Below, in pieces: positions 11,430 to 47,824 of a DNA stretch of 64,000 bases. Origin of the DNA: Adlercreutzia sp. ZJ473 (GTDB lineage: Bacteria > Actinomycetota > Coriobacteriia > Coriobacteriales > Eggerthellaceae); the NCBI RefSeq assembly GCF_013185065.1, contig NZ_JAAVTO010000006.1:1-64000 (forward strand). Direction: 5' to 3'. The notes under the pieces were generated by a model. The model saw only the letters and a list, made by a program, of their open reading frames with translations. It ran no database searches and had not been told where the DNA came from. The position numbers were made by a program, and so were the translations under genes. The stretch's first letter is position 1. Every line of letters starts with the position of its first letter.

Positions 11430-11740
11430 GGCGTGCTGACGGCATGCGCTTCCCCGAAGCAGACCGTCGCCACATGCCCCGGGAGGGCTGCTGTCATGAG
11501 CCTCGCTAGGGAGGCTGCTGCCACATGCCCCCGGGGAAGGCTGCTGCCATGCGCTTCCCCGAAGCAGGCTGCTGGCATCCGTCTCCCAAAGAAGATCTTC
11601 TCCATCAATCTCCCTGGGGATGCCATCCCCCCTTCGCCCTCCACCAGGGCAAGCTGCTCCCATTTGCCCTCCCTGAGGCGAGCTGCCTCCGCCTGCTCTC
11701 TCTAGGCAAGCTGCCTCCATTCGCCCTCCCCAGGGTGAAT
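11430..11740. repeat. Degenerate tandem array, about 11 units of 26-29 bp
   Basis: A unit beginning GCTGCTGCCAT, followed by a pyrimidine-rich CTCCCC and a short complementary GGGGAAG, recurs with clear phase: unit starts at 11487, 11514, 11540, 11568, 11653, 11682 and 11710, with weaker units between and before. Each unit can form a small hairpin. Frames of about 124 codons run through it on both strands but have only repeat composition and no ribosome-binding site, so I do not call them genes. Confidence 0.75.
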
Positions 11741-11932
11741 CGCCGATAACGGCTGTTTTCCATCCACCCGTTGGCGATTCTGGATGAAAAGAGGCCGTTA
11801 TCGGCGATTTCCCGGAGAAAACGGCTGCAAAACCCGCGTTGTCGGCGATTTCAGAGGTTCAAACCACCGACAACGAGCGTTTTCCATCCACCTTCCCCAA
11901 ACAAGTGGATGGAAAAACGCCGTTGTCGGTTC
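11737..11932. repeat. Two related long inverted repeats plus a solo arm
   Basis: Five copies of an approximately 31-bp arm (core TCGCCGATAACGGC followed by TTTTCCATCCAC) occur in alternating orientation: 11737-11767 (+), 11781-11811 (-), about 11828-11852 (-, partial), 11865-11891 (+) and 11905-11932 (-). The first two form a hairpin with a 13-nt loop, and the last two a second hairpin, also with a 13-nt loop. The hairpins are diverged copies of each other, with compensating GATAACGGC/GACAACGNGC differences. Confidence 0.78.
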
Positions 11933-46340: not shown

Positions 46341-46649
46341 ATGGCTGCACCTACCATGACCCCCGAGCAGCGCGCCGCTGCGCTTGAGAAGGCCCGCGTC
46401 GTCCGCGCCCAGCGCTCCGAGATCACCCAGAAGCTCTCCATGGGCATCATGACCCCGGCGGAGGTCCTCGGCAAGGCCGACGACCCGGTGATCGGCCGCA
46501 TGAAGGTCAAGGCTTTCGTGAGCGCCATCCCCGGCTTCGGCAAGGTGAAGACCGAGAAGCTCCTCGAGGAGCTCGGCATCCCGGCCGACCGCCGCATCCA
46601 GGGCCTCGGCTCCAACCAGATGAAGAACCTGCTCGAAGCGCTCTCCTAG
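46341..46649 (+). CDS. mihF: Actinobacterial integration host factor
   Basis: A 102-residue helix-two-turn-helix DNA-binding protein of the actinobacterial mIHF family, unrelated in fold to E. coli IHF: ARVVRAQRSEITQKLSMGIM, then KVKAFVSAIPGFGKVKTEKL and LEELGIPADRRIQGLGSNQ. It shapes the nucleoid and supports phage integration. Start ATG 46341 follows AAAGAG; a longer frame has no start signal. A textbook terminator follows. Confidence 0.93.
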   Translation: MAAPTMTPEQRAAALEKARVVRAQRSEITQKLSMGIMTPAEVLGKADDPVIGRMKVKAFVSAIPGFGKVKTEKLLEELGIPADRRIQGLGSNQMKNLLEALS

Positions 46650-46682: not shown

Positions 46683-46723
46683 AAGGGGTGCGCATCGGAC
46701 GAGATGCGCACCCCTTGCGTTTT
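46683..46723 (+). terminator. Terminator of mihF
   Basis: A perfect 14-bp stem (46683-46696 with 46703-46716), 6-nt loop, followed by GCGTTTT. Confidence 0.92.
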
Positions 46724-46732
46724 CCCGCCGCC

Positions 46733-46913
46733 GTTTTGGCAGAAATCTTCAGATGTTTGTCAATTTGAGGGGGAAATCTCGTCCGCGTGGATGCATGAGA
46801 TAGCGGCGGGCAAAACTGACCTGGTGTTTTGCCGAGCACGTCAGGGACAGGAGCCCCAAAAGGCCCCAACAGCACCCTCAAAATGACAAACATCTGAAGA
46901 TTTCTGCCAAAAC
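46733..46913. repeat. 181-bp element with 39-bp terminal inverted repeats (MITE-like)
   Basis: Positions 46733-46771 and the complement of 46875-46913 are identical at 38 of 39 bases. The 103-bp centre contains no gene but a second small hairpin (GGCAAAAC with GTTTTGCC near 46810-46833). No target duplication is obvious. The structure suggests a non-autonomous transposable element or an RNA gene with a long closing stem. The trmH ribosome-binding site starts just beyond it. Confidence 0.82.
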
Positions 46914-46942
46914 CTCCCTCCGAACATGCAAGGAGTCCCGTC

Positions 46943-47824
46943 ATGCCCCTGATTCACGTTGACACGCTCGACGACGCGCGGCTCGACGCCTACGCGCGGC
47001 TCACCGAGGCGCAGCTGCGCAGCCGCCTCGAGCCCGAGCGCGCGCTGTTCATCGCCGAGGGCGCCAAGGTGATCGAGCGCGCCCTCGAGGGCGGCATGGA
47101 GCCGTTGTCGCTGCTCATGGAGGAGAAGTGGCTGCACGCGACCGACGGCCTCATCGCGCGCATGGAGGCGGCCCGCCCCGATCTACCCGTGTTCGTGGCG
47201 CCGCACGCGGCGCTCGAGGAGCTCACGGGCTTCGAGCTCACGCGCGGCGCGCTCGGCGCGTTCCACCGCCCCGCGCTGCCGAGCGTGGAGGAGGTGGTGC
47301 GCGACGCGCGCCTGGTGACGGTGCTCGAGAACATCACGAACCACACCAACGTGGGCGCCATCTTCCGCTCGGCGGCGGCACTCGGCGTGGACGCCGTGCT
47401 CGTGAGCCCCACCTGCTACGACCCGCTGTACCGCCGCGCCGTGCGCGTGTCGATGGGCACGGTGTTCCAGGTGCCTTGGACGCGCATCGGCGACGACGCA
47501 GCGCCCGCGAAGGGGCGCCCCGGCCGCCCGTCGGCCGCATGGGCGAGCACGGGCATCCCGCTTCTGCGCGAGCTGGGGTTCACGGTGGCCGCCATGGCGC
47601 TCGAGGACGACTCGGTATCGCTCGACGACGAGTCGCTCGCGCGCGCCGAGAGGCTGGCGCTCGTGTTCGGCACCGAGGGCGACGGGCTTGCGCCCTCCAC
47701 CATCGCGCAGTGCGACTGCACCGTGCGCATCCCCATGGCCCACGGCGTCGACTCGCTCAACGTGGCGGCCGCCTCCGCCGTGGCGTTCTGGCAGTTCCGG
47801 AATCTGGCGGGGCTCTCGCGCTAA
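46943..47824 (+). CDS. TrmH/SpoU-family RNA 2'-O-methyltransferase
   Basis: A 293-residue trefoil-knot methyltransferase with an N-terminal RNA-binding domain (LEPERALFIAEGAKVIERAL). Motif I is LENITNHTNVGAIFRSAAAL, motif II is LVFGTEGDGLA, and motif III is HGVDSLNVAAASAVAFWQF. It is distinct from the RlmB-like protein at 18067-18837, notably in the YDPLYRRAVRVSMG segment found in the group annotated as 23S rRNA or tRNA methyltransferases. The target is not predictable. AAGGAGTCCC precedes the ATG and starts 18 bp past the inverted-repeat element. Confidence 0.9.
   Translation: MPLIHVDTLDDARLDAYARLTEAQLRSRLEPERALFIAEGAKVIERALEGGMEPLSLLMEEKWLHATDGLIARMEAARPDLPVFVAPHAALEELTGFELTRGALGAFHRPALPSVEEVVRDARLVTVLENITNHTNVGAIFRSAAALGVDAVLVSPTCYDPLYRRAVRVSMGTVFQVPWTRIGDDAAPAKGRPGRPSAAWASTGIPLLRELGFTVAAMALEDDSVSLDDESLARAERLALVFGTEGDGLAPSTIAQCDCTVRIPMAHGVDSLNVAAASAVAFWQFRNLAGLSR

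Follow-up and report, generated by a model that had tools for sequence, protein, structure and literature searches.

The segment between mihF and trmH in the window (the whole 64,000-nucleotide stretch of Adlercreutzia sp. ZJ473 DNA analyzed here) carries one of 15 copies of a dispersed element, in which two arms, always inverted with respect to each other, enclose an interior whose length varies in steps of one helical turn and which, at three loci, lies in opposite orientations in two sister species. The explanation that we prefer, and to which we would give about an even chance, is that of a helically phased nucleoprotein-loop element whose interior inverts by site-specific recombination, belonging to an inverton-like family. 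The comparisons drew on one genome per species, with the relatives' genomes read in part: the source genome (G000; Eggerthellaceae, 2.63 Mb in 119 contigs), the sister species Adlercreutzia sp. ZJ176 (G001), a third species of the genus (G002), and two members of other genera (G057 and G022, 400 kb each). Genes were called by a simple codon-usage method, and arm types were defined by inspection; for arm types other than that of the 15 copies, the survey of G000 covered the window and the loci retrieved around the copies.

At the mihF-trmH locus, positions 46733-46771 and 46875-46913 form the arms of an inverted repeat in which 38 of 39 positions pair, exactly where the first-pass annotation had placed it, and, as was also stated there, neither gene is disrupted, the stop codon of mihF lying at 46649 and the start of trmH at 46943. 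The extent of 181 bp given in that annotation is exact for the repeat but too narrow for the element, which the outer hexamers, seen when conservation is profiled over the 30 arms of the 15 copies, extend to 219 bp (46714-46932, from outer motif to outer motif). From left to right, it comprises (i) an outer motif, CTTGCG (CKTGCA in other arms), at 46714-46719 on the plus strand; (ii) a 28-bp core, TTTTGGCAGAAATCTTCAGATGTTTGTC, at 46734-46761 on the plus strand, which is near invariant across copies and 99.3% identical between orthologs; (iii) the off-center motif AAAACTGACCTGGTGTTTTG at 46812-46831 on the plus strand, with GACCTG at 46818-46823, which is common to the copies and to elements with other arms in other genera; (iv) a second core at 46885-46912 on the minus strand, with the same sequence as the first, inverted; and (v) a second outer motif, CTTGCA on the minus strand, at 46927-46932, overlapping the AAGGAG that precedes trmH. 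A strong hairpin after mihF (46684-46715, plus strand, -29.8 kcal/mol) adjoins the left end as context outside the element; it is terminator-like with a poor T run, and terminator scoring did not call it. With this hairpin upstream and the ribosome-binding site downstream, a trmH promoter would, by argument only, have little space except inside the element. Elsewhere in the window, positions 11738-11929 hold two overlapping imperfect inverted repeats (25/29 and 25/30) without the center motif.

A BLAST search of the source genome with the element as query recovered 14 copies besides that at mihF-trmH, each an inverted pair about 165 to 190 bp long, and a 15-mer scan allowing three mismatches resolved the 30 arms of G000 into 15 inverted pairs, with no direct-repeat pair and no convincing solo arm. 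Since the arm occurs 30 times in the same genome as 15 inverted pairs, the inverted repeat is far beyond chance. Together with the 12 copies carried by the sister species, this search for the arm elsewhere, which the first-pass annotation had advised, disposes of the possibility entertained there of a single copy without relatives. At 11 of the 15 source loci, G001 has an element at the same place with the same neighbors; four other loci are occupied in G000 and an intact G001 copy was not seen there, G001 retaining at L028 a degraded left arm only, with no clean empty site. One duplicate copy in G001 arose by copying of about 500 bp including flank, and no target-site duplication was detected at any boundary tried. 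The exact arm pattern matched only ZJ176 in a collection of 84,980 genomes (from which records very near the source's own may be absent), and a profile search across the family gave two weak 17-bit matches only. No match to the element was found in phages, plasmids, or viral contigs, which speaks against a phage or plasmid origin, and the genes flanking the copies, mostly housekeeping genes, are unrelated to one another, which speaks against a regulon of one pathway. Beside the copy upstream of groES lies an IS110-family transposase gene (L034:2572-3666, G000:C28), below the family cutoff in G001.

Alignment of the 30 arms resolves each into CKTGCA, a 14-bp spacer that is weakly conserved and A/T-rich where it starts, and the near-invariant 28-bp core TTTTGGCAGAAATCTTCAGWTNTTTGTC; from the first base of CKTGCA to the GGCAG of the arm is 24 bp, and outer motif and core keep the same distance in all arms. 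The core is an imperfect dyad, GGCAGAAATCT-TC-AGATATTTGTC, with an asymmetric center. Recombination sites of serine and tyrosine recombinases are likewise imperfect dyads with an asymmetric center. The interiors of the copies are mutually unrelated except for the off-center motif, GACCTG with an A tract before it and a T tract after it, which may run either way. This motif was spotted by eye in G000 and then tested in other genomes; in G000, 11 of the 15 copies have exact GACCTG at the expected place, two have a one-base variant (GACCAG or GAGCTG), and the other two have weaker matches.

The core-to-core lengths of the 15 copies take only the values 160 to 161, 171, and 182 to 183 bp, that is, steps of one helical turn, and the Rayleigh statistic reaches 0.97 near a period of 10.5 to 10.8 bp; in 200,000 uniform simulations across this range of lengths, no value was as high. 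From one core center, the distance to the center motif is 61, 71, or 82 bp, and from the other it is usually 76 bp. Orthologous interiors are of equal length in 10 of 11 cases, and the exception, L029/L091, differs by one clean 10-bp gap. In the orthologous alignments, the interiors have 3 gaps in 1369 columns versus 36 in 2585 columns for the flanks; two of the three form a compensating pair within one equal-length alignment, leaving the 10-bp indel as the sole real one. Because the spacing is quantised and the only indel measures 10 bp, selection is on DNA geometry and not on an RNA hairpin: the length constraint acts on duplex DNA, the sites and their helical phase being what is selected.

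Between G000 and G001, the cores (99.3%) and outer motifs (97.9%) are far more alike than the interiors in matched orientation (84%) and the flanks (64%). At 3 of the 11 orthologous loci, the interior aligns in the reverse orientation to the flanks. The outer 20 bp of each arm at these flipped loci stay with their own flank (17 to 19 of 20 positions matching, versus 8 to 12 crosswise); since this outer sequence is stationary and the inner sequence swaps sides, the breakpoints lie inside the 28-bp cores. The inner swap is weaker at L038/L090 (13 and 7 of 20 versus 4 and 6), where the whole interior is 76% identical when inverted versus 37% when compared directly. Two features of invertons are thus present, in that inverted repeats within the 10- to 40-bp range flank the segment (28-bp cores; 38/39-bp arms at mihF-trmH), and both orientations, with breakpoints in the repeats, occur between the two species at three loci. 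Left and right cores match fully over positions -1 to 23 at the three flipped loci and at no other of the 11, all eight loci with core mismatches being unflipped (Fisher's exact probability 1/165, for a pattern noticed post hoc). This pattern is as expected for a recombinase that requires a good site on each side, and also for a passive process dependent on homology.

The same plan, with center motif and phasing and with different arms, recurs in three further species, in part at shared loci. G002, the third species of the genus, is without the source arm and has its own version, in which GAAATGTGCAAT occurs twice per side, 41 bp apart, inverted around GACCTGCGNAAA; four loci in the 0.99 Mb read carry this version, one of them being the locus of copy L028. 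At pnp-dapB, where copy L029 lies in G000, the arms in G002 are TGGCACAGAWTTG and enclose an exact GACCTGCGGTTTTGC. In G057 and G022, about ten or more inverted-repeat elements of several arm types were found per 400 kb each, about two-thirds with the center site, frequently between convergent genes and with diverse neighbors. Over the three species, GACCWG is present in 20 of 31 elements with an 80- to 160-bp gap, versus 11.7% of intervals matched for length and composition; the context on either side of it agrees as well, the center-site consensus being YGACCWGSGGWWWWSG. Spacing differences within a type are 0, about 11, or about 22 bp for every arm type (131/131/132/142, 146/147/147, 158/158, 150/151, 140/150/151, and 123/134/145), and all 17 within-type differences fit helical steps, although they do not amount to 17 independent events, since some copies of a type may share descent. 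Where there are two sites per side, these are 41 or 51 bp apart, near whole turns.

Several further repeats were noted in these genomes. Arm types GTGACGGTTCTGCGCAGG and GACCTTCGGGACTGATTT in G022 (L329, L336, L338, and L347) are mostly without the GACCWG center, and the 123/134/145 spacing of the GTGACGGTTCTGCGCAGG type is helical despite this. G002 carries about a dozen copies of a dispersed inverted repeat with short loops, TGACAAGGGGACAGGTCGTTTGTCA, in L249-L268 (about 0.37 Mb), as well as a family of 100-bp inverted repeats, GAAGCCCNGAGGCATTTCGCC, at mihF-trmH, pnp-dapB, and a third place (L112:1809-1908, L232:1809-1909, and L285:9935-10035). The parS-like palindrome TGTTTCACGTGAAACA is unusually dense in G057, with 75 exact occurrences in 400 kb (L309-L328, C1:1-400000) and at most 15 per 20-kb stretch, compared with 5 in 400 kb of G022 and 29 in 0.99 Mb of G002.

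An arrangement of two inverted asymmetric sites and an intervening third, with helical register throughout, is that of a synaptic or looped complex. In the mechanism that we propose, a trans-acting protein would bind the two inverted 28-bp cores, the outer CKTGCA sites providing extra contacts, and a second, common DNA-bending protein would bind the off-center GACCTG site; the cores would be paired around the bend, and recombination within them, presumably active rather than rare and passive, would flip the interior, perhaps with effects on neighboring genes. A single protein would serve all 15 copies in G000, and related Eggerthellaceae use the same plan and center site with other arm specificities. 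No cognate recombinase was assignable among those surveyed in three genomes. Those common to G000 and G001 at high identity are only XerC, XerD, and one serine recombinase, XerC and XerD being the only tyrosine recombinases so shared. As the specific enzyme, XerC/XerD is disfavored, because XerC occurs in nearly all genomes of the family and the source arm type does not. In both species, the shared serine recombinase (L172/L173) is followed by inverted repeats of its own, AAAAGGTAGACTTTTTGC, and no homolog of it was detected at an E value of 1e-30 in G057, a genome with related elements; IS110-type recombinases are above the cutoff in G000 only. An invertible sigma-70 promoter is disfavored, since such promoters are not enriched in the interiors of the copies. 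The small serine recombinase is encoded beside aspS (L172/L181, G000:C67:13466-14179; L173/L182, G001:C1:47889-48602), with the AAAAGGTAGACTTTTTGC repeats just downstream, and its homologs from other genera are accompanied by similar repeats (L193, AAAGTAGACATTTCCGAGAG; L200, GAAACGTACACGTTTTCGT), so that gene and repeats look like a local inverton, duplicated in G000.

The strongest rival to site-specific inversion is a static looped site, in which the arms serve a DNA-looping protein as operators or architectural sites, the center is a bend site, and the interior flips only rarely and passively, when perfect 25- to 28-bp inverted repeats recombine or allow template switching; we regard this as a serious possibility, albeit a somewhat improbable one. 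Such a loop, comparable to that of GalR with HU at gal or to one made by a nucleoid-organizing protein, predicts the helical phasing equally well, and two sites with an architectural site between them in helical register, as in a Gal-type loop, are indeed what is found. The confinement of inversion to loci with identical cores (3 of 3, versus 0 of 8) and the lack of an assignable recombinase in the survey also speak for it, as does the frequent position of the elements in other genera between convergent genes with diverse neighbors, reminiscent of chromosome-organizing sites. Site-specific inversion has further points to answer, namely that the central CTTCAG is identical in both arms at five of the eight unflipped loci, that promoters are not enriched, and that the neighbors are mostly housekeeping genes. 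A symmetric operator pair, however, needs neither the inverted arrangement of 15 of 15 pairs nor an asymmetric core center, and a static loop leaves the changes of arm specificity at constant loci unexplained. Site-specific inversion is favored because interiors occur in flipped orientation and the breakpoints fall within the sites; it is further supported by the exclusively inverted pairing of the arms, the conservation of cores and outer motifs, the phasing of cores and center motif, the asymmetric imperfect-dyad cores, and the recurrence of the plan in three other species.

The first-pass annotation had read the long, well-matched arms as a sign of recent mobility or of selection for RNA structure. 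Its underlying observation stands, in that the element is dispersed and its arms are selected; neither of the two causes is supported. A nonautonomous element of the MITE or REPIN type, with a transposase in trans recognizing the arms, would account for many dispersed intergenic inverted pairs, for several arm types per genome, and for the four G000 loci without an intact copy seen in the sister species, but we consider it improbable: same-arm copies have unrelated interiors apart from the center motif, target duplication went undetected, 11 of 15 loci are common to both species, sister-species L028 is a degraded remnant and not a clean empty site, and neutral passengers would not keep helical spacing. 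Least probable is a long transcribed hairpin acting as a regulator or processing site. Its predicted fold as single-stranded RNA is very stable (-93.2 kcal/mol for the inverted repeat versus -50.6 +/- 4.2 for shuffles, z -10.2), and in 14 of the 15 copies a simple gene finder places the element ahead of the start of the neighboring gene on one or both sides. Against it, arm variants are frequently uncompensated on the opposite arm, the outer spacer is unpaired, the spacing is quantised in helical turns, and the center motif runs about randomly relative to gene direction (6 same, 7 opposite); no Rfam match at gathering score was found.

It seems possible, and we put it forward tentatively, that these elements form a previously undescribed class in Eggerthellaceae, that is, a helically phased loop with a universal center site, YGACCWGSGGWWWWSG, and exchangeable inverted arms, numerous per genome in some genera and served by a dedicated protein system that performs inversion or chromosome looping, in which arm specificity turns over with time, even within a single locus, while the center and phasing persist. 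A published description was not found in a limited literature search, whose coverage left out most subscription journals. If this is confirmed, a gut-bacterial family would possess a genome-wide, protein-controlled set of helically phased elements, invertible or looping, at housekeeping loci. Since the center is constant and the arms vary between species and within a genome, the elements offer a natural series for studying specificity change in a recombinase or looping protein. The prediction is that loci with identical cores flip and that loci with mismatched cores do not.

Four known systems invite comparison. Like Mpi of Bacteroides fragilis, a global invertase with a network of 13 invertible regions (PMC4747536), and like invertons (PMC11892184), the elements are short segments between inverted repeats, with one repeat common to many loci, unrelated interiors, and an orientation that differs between genomes; unlike them, they have neither a cognate invertase nor an interior promoter that we could find, their neighbors are mostly housekeeping rather than surface genes, their spacing is helically quantised, and a common center motif goes with exchangeable arms. 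With the Hin/Fis invertasome of Salmonella they share two inverted sites of the 26-bp class and a third, synapse-organizing site between them, in a system where the shape and phase of the enhancer matter (PMC3798978). Hin, however, inverts about 1 kb around an enhancer of two Fis sites 47 bp apart (PMC3798978), whereas here the segment is about 110 to 135 bp, the center is a single GACCTG motif, and a Hin-like gene was not assigned. The Gal repressosome, like other two-operator loops, resembles the elements in having two operators with an architectural protein between them in helical register (PMC5110547, PMC4693257), the proteins being inferred in our case, and GalR sites also occur at genes unrelated to the regulon (PMC5110547); unlike Gal loops, the interior is inverted between species, the arms are asymmetric and always inverted, and no regulator was identified. 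REPINs, too, are dispersed intergenic inverted pairs with conserved ends and a less conserved spacer (PMC3116915), but here the positions are conserved across species with no mobility signature, no transposase was found to go with the elements, and same-arm interiors are unrelated except for the phased center motif. As far as could be established, none of the four combines a common center site with exchangeable arms and quantised spacing, as these elements do.
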